Below are positions 15,900 through 36,662 of a stretch of DNA of 36,662 nt, piece after piece. Both the position numbers and the translations under genes were made by a program. The first letter of the stretch is position 1. Every line of letters starts with the position of its first letter. Under the pieces are notes generated by a model, which did not search any database, was not told where the DNA came from, and saw only the letters and a list, made by a program, of their open reading frames with translations. This stretch comes from an uncultured Rhodospirillaceae bacterium (GTDB lineage Bacteria; Pseudomonadota; Alphaproteobacteria; Rhodospirillales; Magnetospirillaceae): the NCBI GenBank assembly GCA_903901915.1, contig CAIUSV010000078.1:1-36662 (forward strand), given 5' to 3'.

Positions 15900-15914
15900 A
15901 ACTCAAACTAAGAC

Positions 15915-17084: not shown

Positions 17085-17266
17085 TCCGCGACCTGCTGCG
17101 CGCCGCCTTTCCCGCCGCGGGGGAATCGCCCCGCCTGTTTCCCTGGCTGCTGCTGCTGGGGCTGCGGTTCCTGACGCGGCCGCGGGCGATGGCGGCGATG
17201 GTCAAGGCGGTCAAGGCCGCCCGGCGGCGCGAAGCCGTGAAGAATGACCTCTACCCCCTATGGTGA
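17081..17266 (+). CDS. Small amphipathic protein, function unknown
   Basis: A 61-residue protein with no recognised family. Its ATG overlaps the stop of the preceding SGNH gene (ATGA), and its own stop lies 4 bases inside the next gene, whose ATG is at 17260, so translation of all three appears coupled. That makes a real gene likely despite its size. Residues about 19-31 are hydrophobic (LFPWLLLLGLRFL), perhaps a membrane-associated helix. Residues 34-54 are alanine and lysine/arginine rich and could form a basic amphipathic helix, and the chain ends NDLYPLW. It might be a partner or membrane tether for one of its neighbours (inference). Confidence 0.6.
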   Translation: MIRDLLRAAFPAAGESPRLFPWLLLLGLRFLTRPRAMAAMVKAVKAARRREAVKNDLYPLW

Positions 17267-20296: not shown

Positions 20297-20335
20297 TCGG
20301 ACCGGGCGGAAATCCAAGAAAACCAGGGTAGGGCA

Positions 20336-20365
20336 TTGACACTTCGGCCCTGCTTCAATTATGGC
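20336..20365 (+). promoter_or_regulatory. Candidate sigma-70 promoter for the second half of the plus-strand run
   Basis: A perfect TTGACA (20336-20341) lies 18 bases before TATGGC (20360-20365) in the 136-base gap between the acyltransferase stop and the SDR ATG at 20433. It is the only sizeable gap in the plus-strand run, consistent with a separate transcription start for 20433-25451. Confidence 0.5.
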
Positions 20366-20432
20366 TGTCGCGCCGGTGTTCCGGCCCGGCCGACAGCGGG
20401 CGTTCGCCTTATCTCCTGATCGCAAGGTTCCG

Positions 20433-21434: not shown

Positions 21435-21444
21435 GATTGGCGCC

Positions 21445-22188: not shown

Positions 22189-22219
22189 CCGCCCGTTTCC
22201 CACCCTATGGGGCCGCACC

Positions 22220-24031
22220 ATGCCAAGCCTTTCCGCAGAGTCTTCGCCGCGCCGAACCCGGATCGTCATGGCCGGGCTGATCGGCGTCTGTTCCGTCCTG
22301 CTCACCGTCAAGTATTTCCCCGGGGTGGAAAGCAGCCAGTATTACTCCGGGCTGATCCTCAAGACCCTGCACCCCGAACTGCTGGCCAATGACGGCGCCC
22401 ACGGGGCGCCGTTCTCGGTTACCGGGACGCCCTATCGGCTGTCACTGTATTACCTGCTGCCCAAACTGTTCGGCGAGCTGTGGCTGGATGACCGCTTCGC
22501 CGCACCGTTCTATCTCGCCATGGTGGCGGGCTGCTTCGCCCTGGTCGATCGCATCGCCATGGCCCTGGGAGGGCGCGGCCTGTTCGAGCGGGCGGCCATC
22601 GTGCTGATGTTCGCCAAGGATCACCAGATCCTGGCCAACAAGGTGAATTTCGCCCACGACCCCGACTTCCATCATTCCGCCCTGGCCATGCCGTTCAGCT
22701 TGCTGGTGCTTTGGGCGGCGCTGGCCGGCAGAAGCGTCTGGGTCGTGCTGGGGCTGATCATCCTGCTGGCCGGGGTATCGAGCCAGGTGACGCCGTTCGC
22801 CGCCGCCGTCGGCCTGGGTGCCGTCGCCATCGGCGCCGCCCCACGGCAGCGGCGGCTGGCGCTGGGGCTGCTGGGACTGGGACTGCTGGCCGGGGTGATG
22901 GTGATGGTCGCCGCCGCGCCCCCCGCCGCCGACCGGGTAGAGCTTTGGGATATGCTGGCCGGACCGTGGTACAAGAACATGGCCAATCCGTTCAATACCA
23001 AGCGCGACGGCGTGGTGTTGTCGGTGGTGTGGAACACCCTGTTCCTGCTGCTGCTGGCGGTGGCGCGGTTTTGGCCCGGCGAGGCCACGGCGCCCATGCG
23101 GCGGCTACGCATGATCGCCACCGCATCGTTCGCCCTGTGGCTGGCGGCGGGGCTTTATGTCCAGTTCTCGCCGACGGTGGCTCACTTCCCCCAGCTTCTG
23201 CTGTTCCCCTTTGCCCGCCAGCTCCAGGCGGCCCAGGTGGTGATCTATGTGGGCGCCATGGTGCTGCTGTTCCGCTGGCAGGGGCAACAGCCCAGCCTGG
23301 GCCGGACCATGGCCGCCCTGACGGTATTCGCCGTTCTGCTGGTGGCGGGGCCGGGAAACTACGGGATGTGGGCGGGGATGTTCGCGCTGTCGTCGCTGGC
23401 GGCAGCGGCGGTACTGCATCTGCGGCCTCGCGACGGGGAGACGGCCGGGGGGATGGGCGCCACCGTCGCCAGCCGCTTTCCCGCCCTTGTCGCGACGGCC
23501 CTGGCGCTTGGCGTCGCGGCGATGGGTGCCGACGCCATCCGGCAAAAGGCGCCGGCGTGGTTGATCACGGCGCGGACGGGAATTCACGGCGCTTCGTCGC
23601 AGGCCAAGTGGCTGGGGGTCGCCCGCTATTTCCGCGCCAAGACACCGGTGGACGCGGTGGTGCTGACCTATCAGGTCGATGTCAACGGCCTGCTGGCGGT
23701 GCGCCGCGAACTGGCGTCGCGCTCCGGACGGGCGATGGCGCCACCGTTCCTGCTCGCCCATGGACTGAAGCTCGACTACTTCCGCTTCACCAAACGGCAA
23801 TTGGATCTAGCCAACGACATCCGCGATACCTGGCAGGCCGGCGATGCCGCCGCCACCGCCGCCGGTCTGGACGAGATCCGCCCCCGGCTTGATTACGTCG
23901 TCATGCCCAGCCCCCAGGCCAGCCTGATGGCCGGCTCCGACTTCCCCTTCGCCCCCGAGGCCACCATCGACGGTTTCACCATCATGCGGCGGGTCAAGGG
24001 CCAGGGCACCGCCATCAACGGGTCGCCGTGA
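22220..24031 (+). CDS. Large polytopic membrane protein, possibly GT-C fold
   Basis: A 603-residue protein with roughly ten transmembrane helices between residues 14 and about 445, then a soluble C-terminal domain of about 150 residues. That shape matches GT-C glycosyltransferases that use polyprenyl-phosphate sugars. No clear acidic DD/DE pair follows the first helix. A conserved-looking NFAHDPDFHHS (about 140-150) is visible in a loop and might bind substrate. It follows the GT2 gene by 31 bases and overlaps the methyltransferase start (GTGA). The family is not identified; an O-antigen ligase or polymerase-like role is a less likely alternative. Confidence 0.7.
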   Translation: MPSLSAESSPRRTRIVMAGLIGVCSVLLTVKYFPGVESSQYYSGLILKTLHPELLANDGAHGAPFSVTGTPYRLSLYYLLPKLFGELWLDDRFAAPFYLAMVAGCFALVDRIAMALGGRGLFERAAIVLMFAKDHQILANKVNFAHDPDFHHSALAMPFSLLVLWAALAGRSVWVVLGLIILLAGVSSQVTPFAAAVGLGAVAIGAAPRQRRLALGLLGLGLLAGVMVMVAAAPPAADRVELWDMLAGPWYKNMANPFNTKRDGVVLSVVWNTLFLLLLAVARFWPGEATAPMRRLRMIATASFALWLAAGLYVQFSPTVAHFPQLLLFPFARQLQAAQVVIYVGAMVLLFRWQGQQPSLGRTMAALTVFAVLLVAGPGNYGMWAGMFALSSLAAAAVLHLRPRDGETAGGMGATVASRFPALVATALALGVAAMGADAIRQKAPAWLITARTGIHGASSQAKWLGVARYFRAKTPVDAVVLTYQVDVNGLLAVRRELASRSGRAMAPPFLLAHGLKLDYFRFTKRQLDLANDIRDTWQAGDAAATAAGLDEIRPRLDYVVMPSPQASLMAGSDFPFAPEATIDGFTIMRRVKGQGTAINGSP

Positions 24032-24681
24032 CCGCCGCCGCGCTGGCCGCGACCGCCCGGCGGTTGTTCACCGACGGGCCGCCGGCATGGCGGCTGCTTC
24101 AGATCTACCGCCCCTACATCTGCCCGTTCGACGTGATCATCGACGCGGTGCCACAGGGGGCGCGGGTGCTCGATATCGGCTGCGGCGGCGGGCTGCTGCT
24201 GGGGTTGCTGGCGGCGGCGGGACGGATCGGCGGCGGCATCGGCTTCGACACTTCGGTCCCGGCGGTGGAATTGGCCCGCGGCATGGCGGGACGCAGCTTT
24301 CCCGGCCGGCTCGACTTTGAGGCGCTGGCGGTACAGGACTCCTGGCCCGAGGGGACGTTCGACGTCGTCACCGCCATCGACGTGCTGCACCATGTGCCGC
24401 CGTCGGCCCAAGCCGGAGTGGTGGCGCAGGCCGCCGCCAAGGTGCGGCCGGGCGGGCTGCTGCTGGTCAAGGACATGGTCACCCGGCCGTGGTGGCGGGC
24501 CGCCGCCAACCACCTGCACGACCTTGTCCTGGCCCGGCAGTGGATCCACACCCCGGAAGGCGGCGACATCGTCGCCTGGGCCGGGGCGGCGGGCCTGGTG
24601 CTGGAGCGCGAGCGCATCGACAATGTTCTGTGGTACGGTCACCGTCTCCAGGTGTTCCGCAAAGGGGGCGTGGCGTGCTGA
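24028..24681 (+). CDS. Class I SAM-dependent methyltransferase
   Basis: A 217-residue Rossmann-fold methyltransferase. Motif I is LDIGCGGGLLLG, motif II-like GFDTS follows, and motif IV region FDVVTAIDVLHHVPP resembles small-molecule methyltransferases. The start is GTG, overlapping the preceding stop (GTGA), and its stop falls 7 bases inside the following SDR gene. In this operon the likely acceptor is a sugar residue or lipid-linked glycan (inference). Nothing indicates the exact position methylated. Confidence 0.85.
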   Translation: MTAAALAATARRLFTDGPPAWRLLQIYRPYICPFDVIIDAVPQGARVLDIGCGGGLLLGLLAAAGRIGGGIGFDTSVPAVELARGMAGRSFPGRLDFEALAVQDSWPEGTFDVVTAIDVLHHVPPSAQAGVVAQAAAKVRPGGLLLVKDMVTRPWWRAAANHLHDLVLARQWIHTPEGGDIVAWAGAAGLVLERERIDNVLWYGHRLQVFRKGGVAC

Positions 24682-25451
24682 GTCCGTTCATCCGACCCGA
24701 CTGGGTGCCGGCGGTGCCCCCGGGGATGCGTATCCTGATCACCGGCGCCACCGGCGGCCTGGGCCGCGCCCTGGTGGCGATGCTGCGCCAGGGGTCGGAG
24801 TGCGTGATCGGAGCGCATGGCTCCGGGTCGGGCCAGGATTTCGAGGCGGCCCCGGGACTGATTGCGCTGCGGCGCCGGTTCGAGGGCGACGACGATTGCC
24901 GCGCCGTGGTCGATGAGTTCGTCCAAGCCTGCGGCGGCATCGACGCCCTGGTGGTGCTGTCGGGGTCGATCCACTATACCGGCCACTGGAAGGACATCAC
25001 CGAGGCCGAGTGGCGGCGCGAACAGGCCATCAACCTGGACCAGCCGTTCTTTCTCGCCCGCGCCGCCATGGCACACATGACGGCGCAGGGCAGCGGCGGC
25101 CGTATTCTGCTGACCGGCACCGAGTCCGCCATTCACGGCGGATCGCCCACTTCGTTTCCCTATGCCGTCGCCAAGCGCGGCACCGAGTGCATGGTCCAGG
25201 GCATGGCCCGCGAGGGAGCGGCACATTCCGTTCTGGTCAACGGCCTCAGGTTCGGCTTCATCGAATCGGGCTTCCACCAGCGCTGGCACCAGCGCACACC
25301 GGCGCAGATGGCCGAGCGCGCGGCCCTGGTGCCGCTGAAGCGCGGCGGCCATGTGGACGAGGCCGCCGCCCTGATGATCTGGCTGCTGTCGGGCTGGTCC
25401 TCGTTCATGACCGGCCAGATGATTCCGCTGACCGGTGGCGACTGGCTTTAA
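24675..25451 (+). CDS. Classical SDR-family oxidoreductase
   Basis: A 258-residue short-chain dehydrogenase with TGATGGLG (23-30), the usual S151-Y163-K167 catalytic set (LLTGTESAIHGG and YAVAK), and a C-terminal LTGGDW. An in-frame ATG at 24489 would add 62 arginine- and proline-rich residues that are only a shadow of the methyltransferase gene. The GTG at 24675 has AAAGGGGG at good spacing and overlaps the preceding stop; an internal ATG at 24726 is the alternative. It ends the plus-strand run, 18 bases from the stop of the opposing operon. The substrate is unknown. Confidence 0.83.
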   Translation: MLSPFIRPDWVPAVPPGMRILITGATGGLGRALVAMLRQGSECVIGAHGSGSGQDFEAAPGLIALRRRFEGDDDCRAVVDEFVQACGGIDALVVLSGSIHYTGHWKDITEAEWRREQAINLDQPFFLARAAMAHMTAQGSGGRILLTGTESAIHGGSPTSFPYAVAKRGTECMVQGMAREGAAHSVLVNGLRFGFIESGFHQRWHQRTPAQMAERAALVPLKRGGHVDEAAALMIWLLSGWSSFMTGQMIPLTGGDWL

Positions 25452-25454
25452 TTT

Positions 25455-25482
25455 GACCGGATTCGGCCGTCAGCCTCCGGTC
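25455..25482. terminator. Candidate hairpin at the convergent operon ends
   Basis: GACCGG (25455-25460) can pair with CCGGTC (25477-25482) around a 16-base loop, just where the plus-strand run and the minus-strand operon meet tail to tail. There is no T-run on either side and the stem overlaps the last codons of the minus-strand gene, so termination here is only a possibility. Confidence 0.25.
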
Positions 25483-26564
25483 TTGTAGCAGAAGCGGCAG
25501 ACGTCCGGGATGTTGCCGCTTAGATGCGCCTGCCTGAACTGAACCATGGCGTCGCTGTGCCACACCCTGGTCAGTTCGCGGGCGTCACCCAGCTCGAAGA
25601 CGTCGGGATTGCTGATCATGCAGCAGGGCACCGTACGCATGTCCGAGGCAATGTACAGCCGCTCGAACGGCCACGGGCACAGCTTGGCGGGGTCGCGGCG
25701 GTCATACTTGTCGTCGATATACCAGAAGGTGACCTCGACGCCTCGCCGTTTGCCGTCCTCGACCAGCGCGCGGGCGCGTTCGGCGTCGAACTTGCGCTGC
25801 ATGTCGACCTGATCGTTGACCTGGCGCCAGCGGTCCTGGCCCCAGTCGTTGAGGTCCAGCGACAAGGACAGCCGGGCAAAGCCCAGCTCCGCCGCCAGGG
25901 CGGGAAATGCCTCGAGTTCGGCGAAATTGGTCTTTTGCACCACCACCCACATGCGGGTGCGATGCCTGCCGACATCGCGGGCATAGCCGTTCAGCAGCGT
26001 GGCGTTTTCCTTGAGGCGGTCGAACTTGCCGCCACGGCGGATGGTTTCGTAGCTTTCGGCCGAGGCGCCATCGACCGAGACCTGAATCTCGCAGATATCG
26101 CTGTCGATCAGGTGCTTGTAGTTGTCCTTGAGGTGCAGCAGCGAGCCGTTGGTGGTCGAACGCACCCACAGATGCCGGCGGCGGGCCTCGCGCACCATGG
26201 CGAAGAAGGTATCGGCCGCCAGCAGCGGTTCGCCCATACCCTGAAGCTTGACCTCGACCAGCCCGATCTGTTCGTCGAGCAGGCGGGTGAAGTCGGCCAG
26301 TTCCATGTCGGCGGCCCGGGTGTATTTCGGCCAGTCGCTGACCTGGCACATGGTGCAGTGATAATTGCAGCGGCTGACGTTCTCGATGTCCATCCGGACC
26401 GGCAGGTAGTCGAGACGGTCGGTCCGCTTCGACTCCTTGTAGCGGGTCCAGTTGGCCAGCCGCTCGGGATAGGCCTTGAACCCCGCCTGCATGGTGCCGT
26501 CCCACAGCGCCTGATCGGCGCGTGGGGTCGGCAGGTGGGCCTCGCGATTGATGGTCTGGGTCAT
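25470..26564 (-). CDS. Radical SAM/SPASM enzyme
   Basis: A 364-residue radical SAM enzyme with C66, C70 and C73 in CNYHCTMC, a GMGEPLL segment downstream, and a C-terminal SPASM-type region. The extra cysteines are in LCPWPF, PCCM and the terminal CRFCY, probably binding auxiliary iron-sulfur clusters. ATG 26564 is chosen over an upstream in-frame start because it overlaps the previous gene's stop by one base (TGATG). It is the last gene of the seven-gene minus-strand operon. SPASM enzymes acting on carbohydrates include the epimerase NeoN and the dehydrogenase BtrN, so sugar or peptide modification are both possible. The exact reaction is unknown. Confidence 0.87.
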   Translation of the reverse strand: MTQTINREAHLPTPRADQALWDGTMQAGFKAYPERLANWTRYKESKRTDRLDYLPVRMDIENVSRCNYHCTMCQVSDWPKYTRAADMELADFTRLLDEQIGLVEVKLQGMGEPLLAADTFFAMVREARRRHLWVRSTTNGSLLHLKDNYKHLIDSDICEIQVSVDGASAESYETIRRGGKFDRLKENATLLNGYARDVGRHRTRMWVVVQKTNFAELEAFPALAAELGFARLSLSLDLNDWGQDRWRQVNDQVDMQRKFDAERARALVEDGKRRGVEVTFWYIDDKYDRRDPAKLCPWPFERLYIASDMRTVPCCMISNPDVFELGDARELTRVWHSDAMVQFRQAHLSGNIPDVCRFCYKTGG

Positions 26565-27679
26565 CACAGTTCTTTCCGGAACTCCAGGCCCTGGAGGATG
26601 ATGTCGTCGATATCGACATAGCGGTAGATGCCCATGCGGCCCACCGATCGGACCTTCTCCGGCAGGGCGTCGATGTAACGCTGCGCCTTGTCCACCTCGG
26701 CCTTGATCATGGTCGGGTAGAGCTTGTTCTTCATCGACGGCACTTCCAGCGTGATCAGGCTGTTGGGTGACTTGTGCTGGGTGAACTTCTTGAACTCGGT
26801 GACGCGGGTCTGCTGCTCCGAGGCGTTGGGGTAGTAGAGGAAATAGGTGTCCTTGGGCAGGACATGCTCGATCGGCAGCACGATCTTGAAGACCTCGCGG
26901 CCGACGTATTTGAGCTCGCCCCAGCAATGGTCGAACAGAAGATCGGGCGAGGTGGTGGAAATCATCAGATCGCCGGTCAGCACCTCCCCCCCCTTGAGGT
27001 GGAGCGCGCATTTGTCCAGGTCGTAGCGCTCGATCTCGGTGGAGGTGCGGACCTCGCAGCCATCCAGCGCGATATCGAAGAAACGGTTGTAGCCGTCGGG
27101 CGCGGTGGGATAGGCGTTGATGTGGCCGGTATGGAACTCGTAGCGCGAGCCGGTCTCCAGCGGCTTGCGCTTGACCGTCGCCTCGAAGCCGAAATCCATC
27201 TGGCGGTTGTCGTCCAACTGCCAGGCCTTCATGTTGTAGTGCTTGTTATAGCGCTCGTAGATCGTCCGGCCGACACGGCCAAGCCAGAATTCCTCGAAAT
27301 TGGCCGCCACCGTTTCCTCGGGCAGTTCCGCCAGTTCCTTCTTGATCTGGGCGGCGTCGGACATCTTCTCGATGTCGTCGGCGTGGACCGGGTAGTTGTA
27401 GAACGCGTCGTCGCAGTCCTGGTACGACAGGTTGATCTTGTCCAGGTGGCGCATGGGCACGTACTGGCTGAGGAAGTCGAAGGCCGGCTGGCTGCTGTCC
27501 GGACCGATGAAGTGACGGGGACCATAGGTGAAGGGATGGCCGCCATGAAAGAAGGTACGCACGCCACCACCGGTGATGGGAGCCTTTTCCACCACCGTGA
27601 CCTGCCAACCCTTCTCGCGCAGCATCATGGCGAACATGCATCCGGTGAAACCGGAGCCGACGACTAAAGCCTTTTTCAT
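26564..27679 (-). CDS. UDP-galactopyranose mutase-like flavoprotein
   Basis: A 371-residue FAD protein. The N-terminal Rossmann loop is VVGSGFTGCMFA (7-18), followed by the dinucleotide-binding VVEKAPITGGGVRTF, and length and layout fit Glf (UDP-galactopyranose mutase), which makes UDP-galactofuranose. The family's YGPHIFH segment appears as FTYGPRHFIGPD, so the usual histidine position differs. It may act on another nucleotide sugar or use the flavin differently. The start ATG at 27679 is preferred, since the 51-residue extension to 27832 is a shadow of neighbouring coding DNA. It lies between two radical SAM genes and overlaps the next by one base. Confidence 0.72.
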   Translation of the reverse strand: MKKALVVGSGFTGCMFAMMLREKGWQVTVVEKAPITGGGVRTFFHGGHPFTYGPRHFIGPDSSQPAFDFLSQYVPMRHLDKINLSYQDCDDAFYNYPVHADDIEKMSDAAQIKKELAELPEETVAANFEEFWLGRVGRTIYERYNKHYNMKAWQLDDNRQMDFGFEATVKRKPLETGSRYEFHTGHINAYPTAPDGYNRFFDIALDGCEVRTSTEIERYDLDKCALHLKGGEVLTGDLMISTTSPDLLFDHCWGELKYVGREVFKIVLPIEHVLPKDTYFLYYPNASEQQTRVTEFKKFTQHKSPNSLITLEVPSMKNKLYPTMIKAEVDKAQRYIDALPEKVRSVGRMGIYRYVDIDDIILQGLEFRKEL

Positions 27680-27716
27680 CGAAGATCCTCGACAGCTTTT
27701 CGGGAAACGGGAAACA

Positions 27717-28700
27717 TCAGGCGCCGATCTGAACCTTCTCGGCGTAAAGAGGCGAAAGCAGGACCTCGGTGTCCTCGGATTCGTCCCAGACATTGCAATT
27801 GTCGCACAGGCTGATGCAGGCCTTGCGGCCATCCATGTGCATCCGGCGCCGCTCCGCCATCAGGGCGGACTGCCACAGTTCGGTGATCGAGTGCTCGGTC
27901 ACGTTGCCCAGCGGATACTTGTTGTTGTAGTCCACGTTGCACAGCGGCACGTCGCCATTGGCGAAGATCACCATCAGCGACCACAGCGCCACGCACGGCA
28001 GGTTGGGCTCGTAGCTGGTGGCGATGGGTTTGAAGTCCCGGAGCTGGCCGCCCCAGTTGAAGACATTATGATGGTAGATGCGGTCGGTGGCCGCCAACCG
28101 CTGCTTCCAGAACGCCTCGTATTGCGGCCATTCGTCCATGTTGGAGTCCTGGCGGATCATGCGCATCCAGATCTGCGTGTTGGGATTGATGCGATCGCGC
28201 AGCTGGATGAAGCGCTGGGCGTTCTCCATCACCTCCTCGAAATTCAGCCGGACGCGAATGCCTTCGTAGACATCCTTCTTCAGGCTGTCGATGGACATGA
28301 TGATGATGTCGAGGCCCGCTTCCAGCAGGGAAACCGCCGTCTTCTCGTTGAGCAACGCGACATTGGACGCGATGGACGTCTGCTTGATGCCGCCCTGTTT
28401 CAGCAGGGCGATGCGCGCCGCCATCTTCTTGTCCAGCAGCGGTTCGCCGTTACGATAGAGGCTGACCCGCTTGATCTCGTCCTTGTGGGCGATCAGATCG
28501 GTGGCGATCTTGGCGAACAGGTCGTCCTTCATGGTCGGCGACCCGCGTTCCCAGTCGTCGATCGTGCACATCGGACAGCGGGCGTTACAGGCGTTGACCG
28601 TCTCGATCTCGACATGGCGAGGATAGCGCACCAGATCGGCATAGCTTTCGCTCGGGCTGATGCGCCGGTAGAGGTATTCCTGAGCCTTTTCGATATCCAC
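27717..28700 (-). CDS. Radical SAM/SPASM enzyme
   Basis: A 327-residue radical SAM enzyme with C38, C42 and C45 in CNARCPMC, RNGEPLL downstream and a SPASM-type C-terminus (PCVALW, PLCNVD, then CISLCDNC). It belongs to the middle of the minus-strand operon, 28 bases after the SDR-WbuC fusion gene and 37 bases before the mutase-like gene. It is distinct in sequence from the other SPASM proteins here, so three different reactions are likely. The substrate is unknown; carbohydrate is favoured by context only. Confidence 0.87.
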   Translation of the reverse strand: MDIEKAQEYLYRRISPSESYADLVRYPRHVEIETVNACNARCPMCTIDDWERGSPTMKDDLFAKIATDLIAHKDEIKRVSLYRNGEPLLDKKMAARIALLKQGGIKQTSIASNVALLNEKTAVSLLEAGLDIIIMSIDSLKKDVYEGIRVRLNFEEVMENAQRFIQLRDRINPNTQIWMRMIRQDSNMDEWPQYEAFWKQRLAATDRIYHHNVFNWGGQLRDFKPIATSYEPNLPCVALWSLMVIFANGDVPLCNVDYNNKYPLGNVTEHSITELWQSALMAERRRMHMDGRKACISLCDNCNVWDESEDTEVLLSPLYAEKVQIGA

Positions 28701-28728
28701 GAACTCTAAACTCCCGAAGGCGCCGGCC

Positions 28729-30168
28729 TCAGCCGCGCAGATGGCTGACCGCTACGGCAACGAACTTGGCGGCGGCGTCCGCGTTGGACCCGTCCGGCGC
28801 CCAATCGGGGTACGTGCTGTCGCCGGGGCCGCGATAGGGTCCGGGCATGCTCTCATGATAGATGACGCATTCGGACAGCGGGATCGCCTGGTGATACTGG
28901 CCGCGGTCCACCCGATAGATGTCGCCGGCGCCCAGACGCCAGGCGTCGAGAATGGCGCCGTCCTCGGCGTAGGTGAGCACGCCCAGGACGCCTTCCACCA
29001 CATGAAAGCACTCGCCGCGGCGGTCATGCTTGTGCGGCGGATAATAGCGCCCGGCATGCTCCAGGATCACCATGTCGTGATGATCGGCCTCGGGACTGGA
29101 ATGCAGACAGACCCGCACGGTGCCGTCGCGCCCCAGCTGACGCAGCTCGTCCAGCAGCGGCTTGTCGATGCGAACCGGCAGGCGGGTGCAGAAGAAGGAA
29201 CGGGTCTTGGCGTTGAGATCTTCGACCAGCCTGGTGGGGTCCGGCTTCAGCAGCGAAAGGGTCGACAGCGACACAGCGACTCCGTGGCTCCGTGGCTGGA
29301 GCGCAGCCAGGCGGCGGCAGACATCGTCCGGACGGCGCAGCGTCAAGCCGCCATCCTTGACCAGCCTGTCCGGGCGCAAAGATACGTCGAGAGGTCTCTT
29401 TTCGGGAAGGGGAAAGTCGCGGATGGAACAGGGAATGATGTCCAGCTCCACCGGATGGTGGACCCTGACCGCGCCCAACAAAAGCTCCAGCAGTTCAATC
29501 CGGCTGAGCGCCACCGGCCCGGCGCAATGGTAAAGCCCCTTGAGGCGTCCGGCTATCGCCGCCTCGATGGCATCGCAGACATCATCGACATGGACCGGGC
29601 TGAAGCGCTGGTCGGTGGTGCATTTCATGCTGGAAACGCGCCCGAAATCCTTCAGCCAGCCGGTGAACAGCGTGTTGTCCGCCGGATCCTCGCCATAGAC
29701 CTTGGCCAGGCGCAGCGTCACCCAGTCGCGGGCGGTCCGCTCCAGATAGCGTTCCACTTCCAGCTTCTGGGCACCGTAGAGCACGATGGGGTCGGCGGGG
29801 TCGCCTTCCACGTAATCGCCCTTGTCGCCGCTGAAGACATGATCGCTGGAGGTGAAGACGATCGGCACCCGCCACTGGTTCAGGCGGTCGATGATCCGCT
29901 CGATACCGTCGACGTTGATCACGCGCGACCGCGCCGGGTCGGCAAGGCAGCTGTCGGGCCGGGTGTCGCCCAGCAGCAGCACGGCGTGCGAGATCGTCTC
30001 GGGCGAGAAGACGTCGGCCAGATCGCTGGTGGTGGCGTCGAACTTCACCATGCCGGGCCGGGGCGAGGTGTTGTAGGTAGCGATGGCGCGCGCGCTTCCC
30101 AGCCGGGCGAAGAGATGACGGCCGACGAAGCTGGAGCCGCCGAGGATCAGGATGCGTTTTCCGGTCAT
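28729..30168 (-). CDS. SDR (RmlD-like) fused to a WbuC-type cupin
   Basis: A 479-residue two-domain protein. Residues 1 to about 290 form an extended SDR with GGSSFVG (10-16) and Y131/K135 in YGAQK, resembling dTDP-4-dehydrorhamnose reductase. Residues from about 320 match the WbuC family of O-antigen-locus cupins. The metal-binding set is H379 and H381 in PPHKHDRRGE, E386, and H426 in GQYHQAI, and it ends in YHESMPGPY, very like the WbuC signature. WbuC proteins are normally separate and of unknown reaction. The start is ATG at 30168; an upstream TTG at 30180 is less likely. Spacing to the preceding methyltransferase gene is four bases. Confidence 0.8.
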   Translation of the reverse strand: MTGKRILILGGSSFVGRHLFARLGSARAIATYNTSPRPGMVKFDATTSDLADVFSPETISHAVLLLGDTRPDSCLADPARSRVINVDGIERIIDRLNQWRVPIVFTSSDHVFSGDKGDYVEGDPADPIVLYGAQKLEVERYLERTARDWVTLRLAKVYGEDPADNTLFTGWLKDFGRVSSMKCTTDQRFSPVHVDDVCDAIEAAIAGRLKGLYHCAGPVALSRIELLELLLGAVRVHHPVELDIIPCSIRDFPLPEKRPLDVSLRPDRLVKDGGLTLRRPDDVCRRLAALQPRSHGVAVSLSTLSLLKPDPTRLVEDLNAKTRSFFCTRLPVRIDKPLLDELRQLGRDGTVRVCLHSSPEADHHDMVILEHAGRYYPPHKHDRRGECFHVVEGVLGVLTYAEDGAILDAWRLGAGDIYRVDRGQYHQAIPLSECVIYHESMPGPYRGPGDSTYPDWAPDGSNADAAAKFVAVAVSHLRG

Positions 30169-30172
30169 GGTC

Positions 30173-30835
30173 TCATTCAAAATAGATGAAGCCGTGATCG
30201 CCGGTATAGCCGGCGCGCTCGAAGATCCATCGCCAGCCCTCGGGACGATGGAAGCTTTCGCAGGTCAGTTGCCAATAGAGCAGGTTGGCCTTTTCCCGTT
30301 CGGTGCGATAGGACTCGACGCAGACATAGCCCCGGCCCTTGCCGACCCGCTGCATTTCCCTCAGCGCCTGATCCAGCTCGTGGATTTGCAGGTTGTGGAA
30401 GGTGTTGATGGAAATCACCAGATCGAAATGCCGGTCGGGCCAGGGCAGGCGGGTGCAGTTTCCCTCGGTCAGCGCCGGGCGCACCTCCTCCTTGGCATCG
30501 GCGATGCCATAGGCCGAGATGTCGAGGCCGGCGACCTCGATTCCGGGACAGGCGCGGGTAAGTTCGTACAGCAGGAACGCCTTGCCGCAACCGACATCAA
30601 GCACCCGGTCGCCCGCCTTCAGGTCGTAGTGCCTGACCAGATCCTCGGCCAGTGGCAGCCAGCGGCCGTCATAGCGCATGCCGCCGAAACCGAAACGGCG
30701 GTCGCCATCCCAATAATCGAAGCCCCATTCCTTGGCCTTGGCGGCGCAGTCGGCCTTGTCGTGCTCGACCACCCGCTGGACGTAATCGCGTTTGGTGGCG
30801 TTATGGAAGCGTCCCAGAAAGTCGATTTCGGCCAT
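30173..30835 (-). CDS. Class I SAM-dependent methyltransferase
   Basis: A 220-residue methyltransferase with motif I VLDVGCGKAFLLYEL, an acidic GLDISAYGI loop and LPWPDRHFDLVISINTFHN at motif IV. An excellent GGAGGAACAA ribosome site precedes the ATG. It sits third in the operon between the ABC exporter and the SDR-WbuC fusion. Motif order resembles small-molecule (ubiE-like) enzymes, so a sugar or lipid-linked acceptor is likely (inference). Confidence 0.86.
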   Translation of the reverse strand: MAEIDFLGRFHNATKRDYVQRVVEHDKADCAAKAKEWGFDYWDGDRRFGFGGMRYDGRWLPLAEDLVRHYDLKAGDRVLDVGCGKAFLLYELTRACPGIEVAGLDISAYGIADAKEEVRPALTEGNCTRLPWPDRHFDLVISINTFHNLQIHELDQALREMQRVGKGRGYVCVESYRTEREKANLLYWQLTCESFHRPEGWRWIFERAGYTGDHGFIYFE

Positions 30836-30844
30836 TTGTTCCTC

Positions 30845-32659
30845 CTACACCACCGACTGCGGCGCCGACAGTTCGGCCATGCGGCGGAAGTCGGCGTTGG
30901 TGGCCGCCAGTTCCCGATGACTTCCCATGCCCGCCACCTTGCCGTCCTTGAGAAACACGATCCGGTCGCAGTTCTTCAAGGTGCTGAGACGATGGGCGAT
31001 CAGAATCACCGTCTTGCTGCCGCTGAGGGTGTCGATGGCCCGCGACACCTCGCGTTCGGTTTCGGCGTCCAGCGCCGAAGTGGCCTCGTCGAACACCAGC
31101 AGTTCGGGTTCGCTGTAAAGTGCGCGGGCGACGCCGATGCGCTGGCGCTGACCACCCGACAGATTAAGACCGCGCTCGCCGACCCTGGTCTCCAGCCCCT
31201 GGGGCAGGCCGTCGATGAACTCGGCCAACTGGGCCATTTCCAGGGCGCGGCGCACCCTGGCCTCGTCGATCTCGTCGTCGCCGAGGCCGAAGGCGATGTT
31301 GTGACGCAAGGTGTCGTCGGTGAGATAGATCACCTGCGGCACGTAGCCGATCTTGCGTTGCCAGGCGCGCGGGTCGCGGGCGATGTCGGTGCCGTCCACC
31401 AGCACGCGGCCGCCGGTGGGGTCCAGCAGGCCGAGGATGAGATCGACCAGGGTGCTCTTGCCGGCACCGGTGGTGCCGACGATGCCCAGCGCCTCGCCAC
31501 GGGGGATATCCAGCGAAATGCCCCGCAGCACCTCGCGGTCGCCGCCGGGATAGGTATAGTGGACGTCGTCGAGGGTCAGGCGGTCGGTAAAGGGCAACGG
31601 TTCGGGATGGGTGAGCGGACTGGCCGCCGCCGCCGACAGCGCCGGCCAGTCCTTGGCCAGCATCGCCGCCGCCGCGCCACCCTTGGCGATGTTGTTGAGG
31701 TACAGCACGATGCGGTTGAGCGATGGCTGCAGCCGGAAGCCGGCGTAGCCGAACAGCCCCAGCGTCGGCATCACCGCCGCCCGGTCGCCACCGCCCAACA
31801 CCACCAGGGCGATGATCAGCACCATGCCCCCCACCATCAGCGTCTCGGTGGCCAGGCGCGGCGCCTGCTGAAGCACGGCGGCCTGGACCTGCCGCTGGGC
31901 GCGCTGGCGGTAAAGGTCGGCGTAGCTGTCGCAAAAGAAGCTCTCGCGTCCAAGGATCTTGACCTCCTTGACGGCGCCCAGACCCTGCTGCATCGCCTGC
32001 ACCAGCTTGGCGGCCAGCACCTGAACGTGCCGGCCGATCTCGGCGAACACCCGATTGGTGCCCTTGTAGACCGCCAGCATCAGGCAGCCGAGCACCAGAG
32101 CCGTCACCAGCGAGATCATCGGCTCGCTGATCACCAGCACCAGCGCCAGACCGGAGGCGATGAAGATTTCCGAGGTCATCACCACCGCCGACAGCAGCGA
32201 TACCCGGAAGGTGTCGTCCACCGCGAATTCCAGCGTCTGGATCAGTTGGGCCGAATTGCGATGAAAGTGGAAGGCATAGGAAATATGCAGGTAGCCCCGC
32301 ATCAGCATCGAGGTCGCCTGGCTGGTGGTGGCGAACGCCGTCCGTTCCTGATTGTAGATCTGGAACAGCACGAAGGCGTTCTTGCCGACGAAGAATACCA
32401 CCACCGCGGCGCCGACGGCGATGATGGCGATGGTGTGATCACGGTGGGCCAGTTCGATCAGCATCGACCCCACCAGCGGCAGCCGTCCCAGCGAGTCGGT
32501 GTCGGCAACCACGCTGATCAGGCCGAATACCGCGCCGGTTCCCACCGTTTCCAGCACCGCCGCCACCACCGCCAGCACCACCAGCCCGGCCCACCGCCGC
32601 CGCATCGGCGGATCGAGCATGGCAAGGCAGGTGCGGACGGTGGCGAGCGGCGACGTCAC
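30845..32659 (-). CDS. ABC transporter, fused permease and ATPase (MsbA-like exporter)
   Basis: A 604-residue half-transporter. About six transmembrane helices fill the first 320 residues. The ATPase shows Walker A GTTGAGKST (395-403), signature LSGGQ (507 region, about 500-510), Walker B LLVFDEATSALD (about 520-531) and the H-loop AHRLS. Type IV exporters of this kind flip lipids, lipid-linked oligosaccharides or peptides; PglK and MsbA are known examples. The start is GTG, overlapping the stop of the upstream radical SAM gene (GTGA). Its place between SPASM enzymes and sugar-modifying genes suggests it exports the modified product, which is inference. Confidence 0.92.
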   Translation of the reverse strand: MTSPLATVRTCLAMLDPPMRRRWAGLVVLAVVAAVLETVGTGAVFGLISVVADTDSLGRLPLVGSMLIELAHRDHTIAIIAVGAAVVVFFVGKNAFVLFQIYNQERTAFATTSQATSMLMRGYLHISYAFHFHRNSAQLIQTLEFAVDDTFRVSLLSAVVMTSEIFIASGLALVLVISEPMISLVTALVLGCLMLAVYKGTNRVFAEIGRHVQVLAAKLVQAMQQGLGAVKEVKILGRESFFCDSYADLYRQRAQRQVQAAVLQQAPRLATETLMVGGMVLIIALVVLGGGDRAAVMPTLGLFGYAGFRLQPSLNRIVLYLNNIAKGGAAAAMLAKDWPALSAAAASPLTHPEPLPFTDRLTLDDVHYTYPGGDREVLRGISLDIPRGEALGIVGTTGAGKSTLVDLILGLLDPTGGRVLVDGTDIARDPRAWQRKIGYVPQVIYLTDDTLRHNIAFGLGDDEIDEARVRRALEMAQLAEFIDGLPQGLETRVGERGLNLSGGQRQRIGVARALYSEPELLVFDEATSALDAETEREVSRAIDTLSGSKTVILIAHRLSTLKNCDRIVFLKDGKVAGMGSHRELAATNADFRRMAELSAPQSVV

Positions 32660-33729
32660 ACGAAATTACCGTGTTCGGGATCAAGGGACAGGTATTGATG
32701 GAGCGCCAGATTCTTGGCATGCGACACGCAATGGTGCCGGCACGACACCGAGGGATCGAACTCGGCCAGCCGGCGTCGGTTGTCCTCGGAAAACCAGTAG
32801 TCCCGGAACGACCGATCCTTGATCGACCCCAGGATGCCGTCCTTGGTATAGGCCTTGTCCTGGCAGGTATAGACCACCTGATCGGCGCCGATCACGGTCA
32901 GAAAGCGCAGGAACGGACAGGTGGTGTAATCCTTGTCGAACCGGCTTTCCATTTCGTGGAAATGGTCGATGACGGAAAAGCCGTCGCCGCTCAGGCCCAG
33001 GCAGCGATCGATCTCGGCGCGGGCGCCGACGGCGAATTCCCGGTGGTAGACGTTGTTGGCCTCGACCGAATTGCCGACCACGGCGGCGGACAGCTTGACG
33101 TGGTTGACGCCGATCTCCTTGAAGCGCGAGCACACCTCGTACAGACGGCCGTGGTTGTCCTTGCCGACGATGAACGAAACCCCCAGCGTGCACTTGGTTC
33201 CGGTCTTGACGAAGGCGGCCATGTTCTCCAGCAGCCGGGAAAACTCGCCCTCCCTGGCCCCGCGCGACTTGACGTAGGAGTCATCGTCCCAGGCATCGAC
33301 CGAGACCCGCACCCAGGTGGCATGCCGGGCCAGCGCCTCGGCCACCCGCCCCTTGAGATTGGAGCCGTTGGTCAGCGTCGCCACCTTGACCCCGCCGGCG
33401 GCGAGGCGGTCGATCACCTCGGGCAGCGGCTTGTACAACAGCGGCTCGCCACCGCCCGAGAAGGTCACCGCCTTGACCCCCATGGCGACCACGTCGCCGA
33501 CGATCTCGAACATCTTGTCCGACGGAATCTGGTCGCGCTCGTCCATGTCCTCGCCGAGCTTGAGGTCATCGGTGCGATAGGCGCAATACCAGCAATGATG
33601 ATTGCACAGATTGATCGGCTTGATGCGGATGTGAACCGGCGCGGCGACGGTACCGTCCACCAGGGCGTCCAGTTGCTCGCGGAACCGCAGGAATTTGAGG
33701 TTGGAATAGAGCTGGCCGCTCATGTACAT
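32656..33729 (-). CDS. Radical SAM/SPASM enzyme
   Basis: A 357-residue radical SAM enzyme with C42, C46 and C49 in CNHHCWYC, the GGGEPLL segment, and a C-terminal half with further cysteines (TCPF, YTCQDK, CRHHC) that would hold auxiliary clusters. It is the first gene of the minus-strand operon. Either ATG (33729 or 33723) is possible; the first has GAAGG at good spacing. Its stop overlaps the ABC exporter start. It resembles neither of the other two SPASM proteins closely. The substrate is unknown. Confidence 0.86.
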   Translation of the reverse strand: MYMSGQLYSNLKFLRFREQLDALVDGTVAAPVHIRIKPINLCNHHCWYCAYRTDDLKLGEDMDERDQIPSDKMFEIVGDVVAMGVKAVTFSGGGEPLLYKPLPEVIDRLAAGGVKVATLTNGSNLKGRVAEALARHATWVRVSVDAWDDDSYVKSRGAREGEFSRLLENMAAFVKTGTKCTLGVSFIVGKDNHGRLYEVCSRFKEIGVNHVKLSAAVVGNSVEANNVYHREFAVGARAEIDRCLGLSGDGFSVIDHFHEMESRFDKDYTTCPFLRFLTVIGADQVVYTCQDKAYTKDGILGSIKDRSFRDYWFSEDNRRRLAEFDPSVSCRHHCVSHAKNLALHQYLSLDPEHGNFV

Positions 33730-33996: not shown

Positions 33997-34896
33997 ATGA
34001 AGCGATTTCTGGTCCAAACCGCCAACAAATATTACAAGGCGGTTCGCACATGGGTTCTTCAAACGGAAAGCCGTTTCCTCATCCATGCATTCTTCTTTTT
34101 GATCTTCTCACCCGCCGAAGCCATCGTCCTCCGGCAGAAGCGGGAAACGCGCCTGGATGCCCATATGCGGACGCTATGGAAACAGCTCTATTTCAGCCGG
34201 TTCGGCACCGTGCCGCTGTACCGGGTCGAAACCGACCATCCGGTGGCGATCCATTCCGACGACCACAAATGGCCCCGCGGCACCATCCAGAACAATTCGA
34301 TCAACCGCCGCTTCAACCTGAAGCTCTACGCGATGATGGGGTTTCGGCCCGAGCTGACGCTGTTGGACCTGGGCTGCGCCGGCGGCGGTTTCGTCCGCAC
34401 CCTGATCGAGGACGGCCATACCGCCATCGGCGTCGAGGGATCGGACGTATCGAAGAAGCTGCGCTCGCGCGAGTGGGACACCTGCCCCCATCACCTGTTC
34501 ACCGCCGACATCACCAAACCCTTCCAGGCCGCCACCGCCGACGGCGCCCCCCTCGCCTTCGACGTGGTCACCGCCTGGGAGGTGCTTGAACATATTCCCG
34601 ACGAGATCCTGGACGGCCTGATCGACAACATCCGCCGGCACCTGCGGCCGGGCGGATATTTCTTTGGATCGGCCTGCCTGCTGCCCGACGAGAATCCGCT
34701 GACCGGGGCGGTCTACCATGTGACGTTGAAACCGCGTGAATGGTGGCTCGAACGCTTCGCCCGCTTCAATCTCCATCCCGTCGAGAACCACAATTTTGAA
34801 ATCGAGGATTATGTCCGCGGCAACGCCATCGGCCTGACCGAGTGGGACCCCCGAACCGGCGGCGGCTTCCACTTGGTCCTGCGGCACCAGCCCTGA
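33997..34896 (+). CDS. Class I SAM-dependent methyltransferase
   Basis: A 299-residue methyltransferase with motif I LLDLGCAGGGFVRTL, an IGVEGSD acidic loop and FDVVTAWEVLEHIPD in the motif IV region. The first 100 residues include a hydrophobic stretch (about 26-45), which may be a membrane-facing helix, and basic residues typical of glycan-locus methyltransferases. It is transcribed divergently from the minus-strand operon, with a candidate promoter just before it, and is followed after 11 bases by a large membrane protein. The acceptor is unknown. Confidence 0.85.
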   Translation: MKRFLVQTANKYYKAVRTWVLQTESRFLIHAFFFLIFSPAEAIVLRQKRETRLDAHMRTLWKQLYFSRFGTVPLYRVETDHPVAIHSDDHKWPRGTIQNNSINRRFNLKLYAMMGFRPELTLLDLGCAGGGFVRTLIEDGHTAIGVEGSDVSKKLRSREWDTCPHHLFTADITKPFQAATADGAPLAFDVVTAWEVLEHIPDEILDGLIDNIRRHLRPGGYFFGSACLLPDENPLTGAVYHVTLKPREWWLERFARFNLHPVENHNFEIEDYVRGNAIGLTEWDPRTGGGFHLVLRHQP

Positions 34897-34907
34897 CGGG
34901 TGTCGGA

Positions 34908-36662
34908 ATGAACTCAACACCGCCAATGAAAGACTGGTCCGGATACGCTCTGTTCTGGGCTGGCCTGGCACCAGGGGCAATATCCGTTCTCATATACATC
35001 ATAACATCCAGGTATGGATTTACCTCCGATGATGCATTTTTTATATACTCGACAATACACCCCAACTCAATGTCGATACCGAGCGGGTCGGGGTGGATTG
35101 CCGGACCGCTCATACCTTTAATAAAATACGACGCCGCTATATTAAGAATATTCGGCCTTGTGGTGACATTGGCGGGTGCCGCCGTACTGTCAGCCGGGGC
35201 CAATTCGACGTTTGTCGCGCGATTCGGCCTCAAGTCTAATTTTGCGGTTATCTTCGCTTTTGCCGCTTCGGGGGCGATTTACATCTACACTCTTACCCGC
35301 GCGAATACATTTTCCTATTACATCGCGAACACCTCGGGAATCAACGTGGCGGTTGGCGCGGCGCTGCTGGTCGCCACCGCCCGGAGCACGCCCCGGCGCC
35401 TGTGTTTTTCCGTGCTGGCGGGGTTCGGCATCGCCCTGTCCCTGGTGGGCGGCCGGTTGGTCGGCGGAGCGGAAGGAGGCGTCGTCGCGTGCGCGCTGAT
35501 CGCGCTGACGACATCCGAGCCGTGCTGGCGGGATCGCTGCCGGTGGGTCGGCGTCGTCATCGGATCGGCGGCGATCGCCAGCCTGGGTTGGGTCGCGGCA
35601 TTCGGGAACTTCGAGCTTTACCTCACCACCGTCAAGACCATTGCCTCGGTCGCCGGCAAGTATGTGACCCTCAGTTTTCATGTCCAGAAAGAGATCGGCG
35701 GCTATGCCGACTTTATCTGGCATGGCGCCCATAGCCGCAGCTGTATCGCATCGATTTTTCTGATCGTACCGATCGTAGTCTTTTGGCGCACGGTGCGGCC
35801 ATGGGCGGTTTCCGCGTTCGCCATCATCATCGCCCTGTCCGCCGTCACTCAAAGCATCGCCAGCCATGCGGCGGCGGCGGTCAATCAGCAGGGCTTCCTG
35901 GTGTCGTGCGTCCTGGCGTTTGTCTTCGCCGTGCGGATGCGGGGCGCGGGCACCGGAGGGTTCAGCGTCATGGATCGCTGGTTGCCGGTGGCCACCCTCG
36001 CCATTCTGCCGCTGATCGCGGGACTTGGGTCCATGGCGCCGGCGGCATGGGGGGCCTCGGACAACTTCACGCCGTGGCTGATCCTGGCCGGAACGGCGAT
36101 GTCGGCGTTCCTGTCGCTTCCGCGTCGCGGCGTCTGGGTCGGTCTGATCGCCGCCTCCCTGGTGGTCATCGACTGCCAGCCGCTTGAGGTGTTCGTCATG
36201 AAACGGCAAGCCTATCTGGCGGATGCCCTGGGCAAGGGCGGCGACTATCCCCGGATGGAAGGAATTCCCCTGATGGATGGATTCCGGGTGCCGGTGGACG
36301 CGAAGACCTACGCCGACGGCATTCGACGGTTGATCACCGGCGCCACCGCCGACGGCGGGCGCTATCGGGTGATGAACCTCAACGAACTCGGCATCGAGAC
36401 GCTGTTGTCCGGTCTGCCGGTGTTCGGTCAGGTTCTGACCCAGTTCAAATGGGGGGTCGAGCCGGCCGCCTATAACGACGACCTGACCTGCCGGTTCCTG
36501 GCGGGAAACCCGCTGGCCCCGGGGGAACAGGTGATACTGGTGGCCAACACCGAGGTCGGCGAGACCATCCGGTCGTGCCTCGCCCGCGATCACCATCTGA
36601 CCTTTCCCGAGTCCTTCTCGGTGATCGGCGCCCTTCCCAGCCCGTTCATTCAGGGCCGGATC
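34908..36662 (+). CDS. Large polytopic membrane protein, GT-C-like (3' end cut by window)
   Basis: An open frame from ATG 34908 runs 585 codons to the window edge with no stop. After a first helix (about 13-34) comes YGFTSDDAFFIYS with D41 and D42, resembling the acidic pair in the first periplasmic loop of GT-C glycosyltransferases such as ArnT and protein mannosyltransferases. Many further hydrophobic segments follow, then from about residue 430 a more soluble C-terminal region. The first 430 bases are AT-rich, with ATA, AGG and TTA codons, unlike the GC-rich remainder, a sign of a joined or recently acquired 5' part. No family is firmly recognised. Confidence 0.72.
   Translation, partial: MNSTPPMKDWSGYALFWAGLAPGAISVLIYIITSRYGFTSDDAFFIYSTIHPNSMSIPSGSGWIAGPLIPLIKYDAAILRIFGLVVTLAGAAVLSAGANSTFVARFGLKSNFAVIFAFAASGAIYIYTLTRANTFSYYIANTSGINVAVGAALLVATARSTPRRLCFSVLAGFGIALSLVGGRLVGGAEGGVVACALIALTTSEPCWRDRCRWVGVVIGSAAIASLGWVAAFGNFELYLTTVKTIASVAGKYVTLSFHVQKEIGGYADFIWHGAHSRSCIASIFLIVPIVVFWRTVRPWAVSAFAIIIALSAVTQSIASHAAAAVNQQGFLVSCVLAFVFAVRMRGAGTGGFSVMDRWLPVATLAILPLIAGLGSMAPAAWGASDNFTPWLILAGTAMSAFLSLPRRGVWVGLIAASLVVIDCQPLEVFVMKRQAYLADALGKGGDYPRMEGIPLMDGFRVPVDAKTYADGIRRLITGATADGGRYRVMNLNELGIETLLSGLPVFGQVLTQFKWGVEPAAYNDDLTCRFLAGNPLAPGEQVILVANTEVGETIRSCLARDHHLTFPESFSVIGALPSPFIQGRI

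Follow-up and report, generated by a model that had tools for sequence, protein, structure and literature searches.

This analysis concerns seven genes on a contig of 36,662 nucleotides from an uncultured Rhodospirillaceae bacterium (GenBank assembly GCA_903901915.1, contig CAIUSV010000078.1, here C78); the window is this entire contig, part of a 4.1 Mb genome. The genes run on the minus strand from 33729 down to 25470 (Table 1) and encode, in order, a radical S-adenosylmethionine (SAM) protein (rSAM_A), an ATP-binding cassette (ABC) half-transporter, a SAM methyltransferase (MT1), a fusion of a short-chain dehydrogenase/reductase (SDR) with a WbuC-type cupin (SDR-WbuC), a second radical SAM protein (rSAM_B), a Glf-like flavoprotein related to UDP-galactopyranose mutase (UGM) and a third radical SAM protein (rSAM_C). 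In loci that pair an MT1-family gene with a transketolase, rSAM_A and two other oxidoreductases replace one another. We propose, giving the proposal slightly less than an even chance, that the operon belongs to a modular island for the synthesis and export of an unusual sugar of a surface polysaccharide, of O-antigen or capsule type, by way of rSAM_A oxidation, a transketolase and MT1. A preliminary description of this DNA had recognized the operon, whose open reading frames (ORFs), strand, coordinates and gene order we confirm. It had also suggested that the operon may serve to produce and flip an unusual sugar or a modified lipid-linked compound, an idea that is partly supported in that it fits the sugar-enzyme surroundings. 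It missed the likely remainder of the pathway (a split transketolase, an epimerase and two genes without family match), which the host carries on another contig, C9, the pairing of the Glf-like gene with rSAM_C, and the replacement of rSAM_A by other dehydrogenases.

One oxidoreductase beside MT1 and a split transketolase

Merging loci that share a contig or a genome gave 64 contig groups, 33 of which held an MT1-family gene together with a transketolase. At cut-offs of 350 bits for rSAM_A, 300 for a zinc alcohol dehydrogenase (ADH) and 400 for a nucleotide-sugar dehydrogenase, 12 of these 33 carried rSAM_A (including the host, whose transketolase and rSAM_A sit on different contigs), 7 the zinc ADH and 11 the nucleotide-sugar dehydrogenase; none carried two and three carried none. 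The transketolase, split into the genes TktN and TktC, was thus linked to one of the three sugar oxidoreductases in 30 of the 33 groups. No group had two at 200 bits and a single one did at 60 bits (G033, where a nucleotide-sugar dehydrogenase has near it a protein distantly similar to rSAM_A, scoring 112 bits). Twelve further groups, outside this count, showed only MT1 or only a transketolase in the stretch retrieved; rSAM_A was present in four, the nucleotide-sugar dehydrogenase in two, the zinc ADH in one and none of them in five.

MT1 or a homolog is common to all three versions of the pathway, although individual loci may lack some genes. The core of version I comprises an HldE-like gene, an epimerase, two genes without family match, TktN, TktC, rSAM_A and MT1; version II has the transketolase halves, the same two gene families (before or after them), MT1 and the zinc ADH; version III has epimerases, an HldE-like gene, a Gfo/Idh oxidoreductase, the nucleotide-sugar dehydrogenase, an MT1-like gene, TktN and TktC.

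Genome-wide counts in 60 genomes (host included) covered rSAM_A and the zinc ADH; the nucleotide-sugar dehydrogenase was counted in the contig groups. rSAM_A (E<1e-150) was present in 18 genomes and the zinc ADH (E<1e-60) in four, none of them among the 18. MT1 relatives (E≤1e-20, 38–86% identity) occurred in 25 genomes. Among the 19 with MT1 at E<1e-85, 16 had rSAM_A and three the zinc ADH (54–55%), with no overlap (Fisher p 0.001); the E-value cut-offs of all two-by-two tables were chosen after seeing the lists, and all Fisher p values are uncorrected for kinship. TktC (at least 59%) and rSAM_A were found together in 17 of the 60 genomes, each alone in one, and neither in 41. The two lay at most 1.5 kb apart on 12 of the 13 contigs showing both, and 3.5 kb apart on the other. 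Thirteen contigs showed rSAM_A with an MT1-family gene: fewer than 30 bases separated the two on nine, 506 bases on one, 937 bases on another, and 1.8 kb on those of G004 and G007, which like the window have the ABC gene in the middle (order rSAM_A-ABC-MT1). For the zinc ADH, the distance to MT1 stayed within 75 bases on all eight contigs.

Two trees were built, one of MT1 with 41 rows and one of TktC with 37. Their well-supported branches require a minimum of two changes each for the zinc ADH and rSAM_A, so the swap may have occurred on more than one occasion; one rSAM_A row of the MT1 tree, G040, is a long, unsure branch and is absent from the TktC tree. The swap is explained most simply by identity of function, and we therefore infer a shared job, the oxidation of a sugar alcohol, which would make rSAM_A a radical sugar dehydrogenase supplying a keto-sugar to the transketolase.

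The proposed pathway would run as follows. rSAM_A would oxidize an alcohol of an activated sugar to a ketone: a 5'-deoxyadenosyl radical would take the hydrogen of the carbinol carbon, and the twitch cluster the second electron, as has been proposed for BtrN. TktN/TktC would then add a two-carbon unit to the ketone, giving a branched or chain-extended sugar that MT1 would methylate. rSAM_B might carry out a second oxidation, the SDR half of SDR-WbuC might reduce a keto-sugar, and the Glf-like protein with rSAM_C might form a second tailoring pair, acting in ring-form or redox isomerization. Flipping of the lipid-linked product would fall to the ABC half-transporter. An O-antigen, a capsule or a protein glycan could each be the end-product. 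There are precedents for the chemistry and for the kind of sugar: in the accessible part of PMC12247030, an oxidoreductase and a split transketolase are proposed to make the branched sugar of miharamycin and amipurimycin, and in that of PMC9912281, C4-branched higher-carbon sugars are described in O-antigens, one of them O-methylated in an alphaproteobacterium.

Several findings weigh against this pathway. The transketolase of the host does not adjoin the operon, being on another contig, and Pfam and NCBIfam scans found no glycosyltransferase among the operon's own genes. G040 has rSAM_A without a close transketolase, and G050 the reverse. The contig groups are not a random sample: some were located by means of rSAM_C, while others, those of the host family among them, were taken from the surroundings of hits to Glf, MT1, TktC or rSAM_A. 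Three of the 33 (L055, L056 and L057) carry none of the three oxidoreductases, and six of the 11 version III groups are near-identical Bradyrhizobium-type loci and not independent. Because 10 of these 11 also carry the Gfo/Idh oxidoreductase, the nucleotide-sugar dehydrogenase may not be the true counterpart of rSAM_A. Across all 60 genomes the avoidance between rSAM_A and the zinc ADH is not significant on its own (p 0.31), because the zinc ADH is rare. The transketolase branched-sugar step is still a proposal even for miharamycin and amipurimycin, as far as the accessible part of PMC12247030 goes. Finally, among the matches listed at E≤1e-4, BtrN does not appear among the solved relatives of rSAM_A, the best of which are SkfB, MoaA, BlsE and DesII, enzymes of other chemistry; the dehydrogenase role therefore rests on the gene-slot argument.

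In a rival explanation the island makes a surface glycan but its radical SAM enzymes epimerize, deoxygenate or rearrange sugars in the manner of NeoN, DesII or AprD4, the slot shared with the zinc ADH being a coincidence or a sign of different sugars. Among solved structures rSAM_A does match DesII, BlsE and MoaA, not BtrN; rSAM_C matches BtrN weakly (E 1.1e-5), with PqqE, MoaA, viperin and BlsE scoring better; and different clusters may simply produce different sugars. We nevertheless consider this explanation unlikely, if far from negligible. It does not account easily for the 30 of 33 groups that hold exactly one of the three oxidoreductases or for the changes demanded by the trees. The four-cysteine auxiliary pattern of all three radical SAM proteins, moreover, is that of BtrN, and BtrN, PqqE and SuiB are counted as two-electron oxidations, although twitch MoaA is redox-neutral (PMC9012708, accessible part).

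The version III loci of Bradyrhizobium type (L034, L036, L037, L040, L041 and L043) contain a sugar cluster, roughly eleven genes long by our count, that includes a split transketolase and rSAM_C; L037, from a record titled Frankia sp. RB7, is nearly identical to the others and may come from a mislabelled or contaminated assembly. The genes, in a row, are one unidentified gene, two epimerase genes and genes for HldE-like, Gfo/Idh, NDP-sugar dehydrogenase and MT1-like proteins, the two transketolase halves and an SDR; rSAM_C is on the other strand. An eleven-gene cluster is assumed to make bradyrhizose in PMC4743980 (accessible part), to which ours was likened by gene count, not by named genes. 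Bradyrhizose is made by photosynthetic Bradyrhizobium, in which the cluster would then be expected. The link found no support: with reaction-centre genes as the marker of photosynthesis in 146 genomes, close TktC (at least 93%) was present in two of the 12 photosynthetic genomes and in four of the 134 others. Three of the 12 carry a TktC of 37–38%.

Cysteine patterns, gene packing and the flavoprotein

The three radical SAM proteins differ from one another, as the preliminary description had said, with pairwise identities of 25–28% in global alignment. It had called all three SPASM proteins. All are radical SAM proteins with a twitch (half-SPASM) pattern; the SPASM family PF13186 matches rSAM_B and rSAM_C (Table 1), and rSAM_A had no PF13186 match in the Pfam scan. 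Family alignments were A3 and A5 for rSAM_A, in which the last two cysteines were judged from full-length rows only, four rows for rSAM_B, and A4 for rSAM_C, with 42 sequences from several phyla. Each protein has a CxxxCxxC motif and a conserved C-terminal C-x17-C-x40..44-C-x2..3-C, beside which the rSAM_C family has one extra adjacent cysteine. SPASM domains with two auxiliary clusters have more than four C-terminal cysteines, a sequence pattern that the three family alignments do not show. Judged from this pattern, rSAM_A, rSAM_B and rSAM_C are of the single-auxiliary-cluster twitch type found in BtrN and MoaA. rSAM_B also matches the solved BtrN structure 4m7t (E 1.2e-14 with a single sequence, 1.9e-16 with a profile), and the four auxiliary cysteines of BtrN coincide with its own in the alignment; the earlier appeal to BtrN as a precedent is apt for this protein.

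The window encodes a fourth radical SAM protein, of B12-binding type, whose best NCBIfam matches (ApyD, rSAM_ocin_1, PhpK and HpnJ) are all under cut-off, and the related island in G004 has several matches of the B12 type too. The rSAM_C search gave 33 loci that are 18 kb or longer; counting weak matches of at least 30 bits, 21 of them have one radical SAM gene, seven have two, four have three and one has four. Three such genes, which had been called unusual, are thus uncommon. We rejected uniqueness as a trait of the operon, since five of these 33 loci equal or exceed that number.

Its junctions are, in gene order, an overlap of 4 bases, a gap of 9, an overlap of 8, gaps of 28 and 37, and an overlap of 1, in agreement with the earlier statement of overlaps or gaps of at most 37 bases; a start of the SDR gene at the ATG four codons past its TTG would turn the overlap of 8 into a gap of 4. 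A scan of the operon for promoters and terminators was uninformative, with one promoter-like site against 1.4 expected and nine terminator-like sites against 5.8 expected. This packing bears on the idea that SPASM-type maturases and an ABC exporter act here on a small, ribosomally synthesized and post-translationally modified peptide (RiPP). Radical SAM genes with an ABC exporter are a common RiPP layout, and many of the weak NCBIfam matches of the three proteins are peptide maturases. We regard a RiPP cluster as highly improbable, however: with gaps of at most 37 bases a precursor gene has no room within the operon, all NCBIfam radical SAM matches shown fall under their cut-offs, and the partners in relatives are mostly sugar enzymes. 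Short ORFs, among which a precursor gene might lie, are present in the gap upstream of the operon.

The Glf-like protein had been described as mutase-like. The relation to the UGM fold holds, with matches to PF03275 (Table 1) and to 3hdq (E 1.4e-25 with a single sequence, 1.1e-42 over the full length with profile A7, an alignment of 29 rows); the UGM equivalog TIGR00031 is not reached (85.1 bits, cut-off 303.75). We rejected canonical Glf as a label for the reaction and keep it as a relation of fold. Two active-site arginines are essential in UGM (R174 and R280 of the Klebsiella enzyme), and tyrosine and tryptophan positions also have roles in the active site. We take Arg198 of 3hdq to be Arg174 of the Klebsiella enzyme. 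In the profile alignment it stands opposite an invariant lysine, K170 (29 of 29 rows), whereas in the single-sequence alignment it stands opposite the neighbouring R171 of the window's protein, which is not conserved in the family; the second arginine is kept as R292 in all 29 rows. Loss of the Arg198 equivalent is therefore likely for the family, while the window's protein could align either way. The family resembles UGM in fold, in R292 and in some of the tyrosine and tryptophan positions, but has GPRHF, or a close variant, where UGM has GPHIF.

The Glf-like gene (E<1e-60) is present in nine of the 60 genomes and rSAM_C (E<1e-180) in eight, all eight being shared (Fisher p 3.5e-9). Among 46 full rSAM_C loci, several of which have short flanks, a Glf-like gene lies within the fetched flank in 29, with a gap of less than 250 bases in 15. 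The two enzymes thus make up a defined unit that occurs in several phyla. This pair and rSAM_B, which is patchy (six of 60 genomes at E<1e-30), are optional modules, and the reactions suggested for them above are guesses.

Modules in relatives, the host contigs and the surrounding island

The rSAM_C profile search of the genome collection gave 48 loci, two with gene fragments only and six (L042, L048, L049, L050, L058 and L063) on contigs also taken as earlier stretches. By record title they come from Alphaproteobacteria, Magnetococcales, deltaproteobacterial metagenome-assembled genomes, Acidobacteria, Planctomycetota, Omnitrophota, Cyanobacteria, Limisphaerales, Marinimicrobia and others. 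The search for the same gene order that the preliminary description had recommended found a similar one: outside the host group, the closest loci, L030 (Planctomycetota) and L033 (Omnitrophota), have MT1, zinc ADH, SDR, WbuC, rSAM_B, Glf and rSAM_C on one strand, with the SDR and cupin as separate genes and, in L033, two genes between them. Identities are 60–68% for MT1, rSAM_B, Glf and rSAM_C, with rSAM_B orthologs at 67–68%. The operon therefore does not stand alone: several phyla have its modules in other arrangements.

Such rearrangement might mean that this is an ordinary surface-polysaccharide island reshuffled by transfer, in which genes are grouped because they moved together and the seven need not share a pathway. 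Sub-blocks do recombine, with rSAM_A-ABC-MT1-SDR and WbuC-Glf-rSAM_C about 52 kb apart in G004, and rSAM_B is patchy in its occurrence. The order WbuC-rSAM_B-Glf-rSAM_C with MT1 upstream nevertheless recurs in Planctomycetota and Omnitrophota, and both the pairing of Glf with rSAM_C and that of TktC with rSAM_A are tight by statistics that make no correction for kinship; we judge this explanation improbable.

In many relatives, the split transketolase lies near MT1. In the host, both halves are on contig C9, with an epimerase and two genes without family match (families f49 and f28); TktC there has 58% identity to that of L045. Both families recur in many loci of the pathway. Pfam and NCBIfam scans of representatives gave no match at the E-values applied, and a kinase role guessed by eye for one of these C9 genes was dropped for this reason. 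Clusters of many relatives include an HldE-like gene, but none appeared in the stretches of C9 compared (1-62000 of 72568 bases). G004 holds the corresponding blocks on one contig, within about 62 kb: rSAM_A-ABC-MT1-SDR at 767.9-772.3 kb (81, 67, 86 and 46% identity), the transketolase at 796-798 kb (87 and 86%) and cupin-Glf-rSAM_C-GDSL-glycosyltransferase at 824-830 kb; its rSAM_B-like gene has only 35%. G009 likewise has MT1, Glf, rSAM_C, rSAM_A and TktC together on a single contig. C78 and C9 are therefore probably pieces of one island, which would be joined in the host genome.

The ABC gene scores below the equivalog cut-offs of both its closest models, MsbA (294.1 bits, cut-off 602) and PglK (276.8 bits, cut-off 1000). 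The SDR-WbuC fusion is confirmed, with PF04321 matching one half and TIGR04366 the other (76.0 bits, cut-off 42), and the SDR half does not reach the RmlD equivalog TIGR01214 (102.1 bits, cut-off 224.05). When ORFs were compared across the window, L020-L027 and L029-L076, the fusion occurred only in the window; a scan of viral contigs with the protein gave a single match of 22%, to the SDR part.

Scanned neighbours with a family match are mostly of sugar-nucleotide, sugar-phosphate, methyl-transfer, acyl-transfer and glycosyltransferase types. A few, a rhodanese for example, have other functions, and for several the scans gave no match. The SGNH/GDSL and TIGR04372 genes of Table 1 come directly after rSAM_C in L020 (53 and 65%) and L025 (52 and 63%), and L025 also shares the TIM-barrel (80%), acyltransferase (68%) and SDR (82%) genes of the block that follows them. 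L025 pairs its GDSL/SGNH gene with MBOAT acyltransferases, which suggests O-acylated sugars. The island has three GDSL/SGNH-like proteins, of which the first alone is above the Pfam cut-off. Two large proteins without family match, judged by eye to be membrane-bound, are possibly glycosyltransferases of the GT-C kind; the Pfam scan covered the first of them. An IS110-family transposase gene lies between two group 1 glycosyltransferase genes of the island.

Table 1. Features of the window and of contig C9, with the evidence for each
Feature	Position	Strand	Size and start	Evidence
rSAM_A, radical SAM protein; proposed sugar dehydrogenase	32656-33729	-	357 aa	CNHHCWYC motif; twitch-type C271, C289, C330, C334; PF04055, 80.1 bits
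ABC half-transporter, MsbA/PglK type; proposed flippase of lipid-linked glycan	30845-32659	-	604 aa, GTG	
MT1, class I SAM methyltransferase	30173-30835	-	220 aa	PF13847, PF08241
SDR-WbuC, RmlD-like SDR and WbuC-type cupin	28729-30180	-	483 aa, TTG	PF04321, 107.9 bits; TIGR04366
rSAM_B, BtrN-like twitch radical SAM protein	27717-28700	-	327 aa, GTG	PF04055; PF13186, 49.8 bits (cut-off 21.5)
Glf-like flavoprotein, UGM-related, own clade	26564-27679	-	371 aa	PF03275, 81.2 bits (cut-off 26.3)
rSAM_C, twitch radical SAM protein	25470-26564	-	364 aa, ATG at 26564	PF04055; PF13186, 32.8 bits (cut-off 21.5)
IS110-family transposase	1988-3061	+		
Radical SAM protein, B12-binding type	6500-8164	-		NCBIfam, under cut-off
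GDSL/SGNH-like protein	8425-9561			above Pfam cut-off
GDSL/SGNH-like protein	12161-13510			under Pfam cut-off
SGNH/GDSL-like protein	15915-17084	+		under Pfam cut-off
TIGR04372 glycosyltransferase	17260-18453	+		127.9 bits (cut-off 45)
TIM-barrel isomerase-like, acyltransferase, epimerase, GT2, membrane protein, methyltransferase, SDR	18450-25451	+		Pfam
Large protein, possibly GT-C	22220-24031		603 aa	no Pfam match
Large protein, possibly GT-C	34842-36662			no family match
Epimerase, families f49 and f28, split transketolase	C9 (L087), 12179-16521			TktC 58% identical to that of L045; f49 and f28 without Pfam or NCBIfam match

Comparison with known systems

The recurrence of these modules raises the broader possibility, which we put forward tentatively and think somewhat doubtful, of a widespread bacterial glycan pathway that would build branched or chain-extended sugars, oxidizing a sugar and adding two carbons to it by a split transketolase, and in which unrelated enzymes, a radical SAM twitch dehydrogenase among them, fill the oxidation step. 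The Magnetospirillum group, to which we take the host to belong, would stack further radical enzymes on it (rSAM_B, rSAM_C with the mutase-like flavoprotein, and B12-type radical SAM proteins), a radical-driven sugar tailoring for which we found no characterized counterpart. The preliminary description would have been contradicted by an operon both widespread and known as a characterized pathway, and half of this applies. Its occurrence is wide, but a literature search gave no characterized relative among the matches listed, which is weak evidence of absence because most subscription papers were beyond its reach. Action of radical SAM enzymes on surface polysaccharides appears little studied, as judged from the titles and abstract openings of five papers that mention both subjects, none of which describes such an enzyme there. 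The gene-slot swap assigns rSAM_A one concrete, testable reaction; if true, the proposal would explain how some bacteria build branched higher-carbon sugars and supply enzymes for making them.

The ABC protein shares with the PglK and MsbA flippases its half-transporter architecture, and these are its best NCBIfam matches, although it stays under both equivalog cut-offs. BtrN of butirosin (PDB 4m7s and 4m7t) has the radical SAM core and four-cysteine twitch domain of the operon's proteins and is matched in sequence by rSAM_B; it differs in belonging to an aminoglycoside cluster rather than a glycan island, and rSAM_A is not detectably BtrN by sequence. In other 2-deoxystreptamine pathways, the step of BtrN is done by a zinc/NAD alcohol dehydrogenase (NeoA/KanK), a swap of the same kind as that between rSAM_A and the zinc ADH. 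As a twitch radical SAM enzyme with a four-cysteine auxiliary cluster, BtrN oxidizes an alcohol of an amino-cyclitol to the ketone (PMC9012708, accessible part).

For the miharamycin and amipurimycin clusters, likewise, an oxidoreductase is proposed to form a keto-sugar, followed by a split-gene transketolase, and the accessible part of PMC12247030 lists 13 further split-gene candidates, all from Streptomycetes. Those are nucleoside antibiotic clusters, whereas here a radical SAM protein sits in the oxidoreductase slot, and the likeness is drawn from gene arrangement. Among O-antigens with C4-branched sugars such as erwiniose, the 3-O-methyl relative from Rhodopseudomonas palustris CGA009 (PMC9912281, accessible part) offers, in an alphaproteobacterium, the kind of branched, higher-carbon, methylated O-antigen sugar that the operon might make, a likeness in sugar type.

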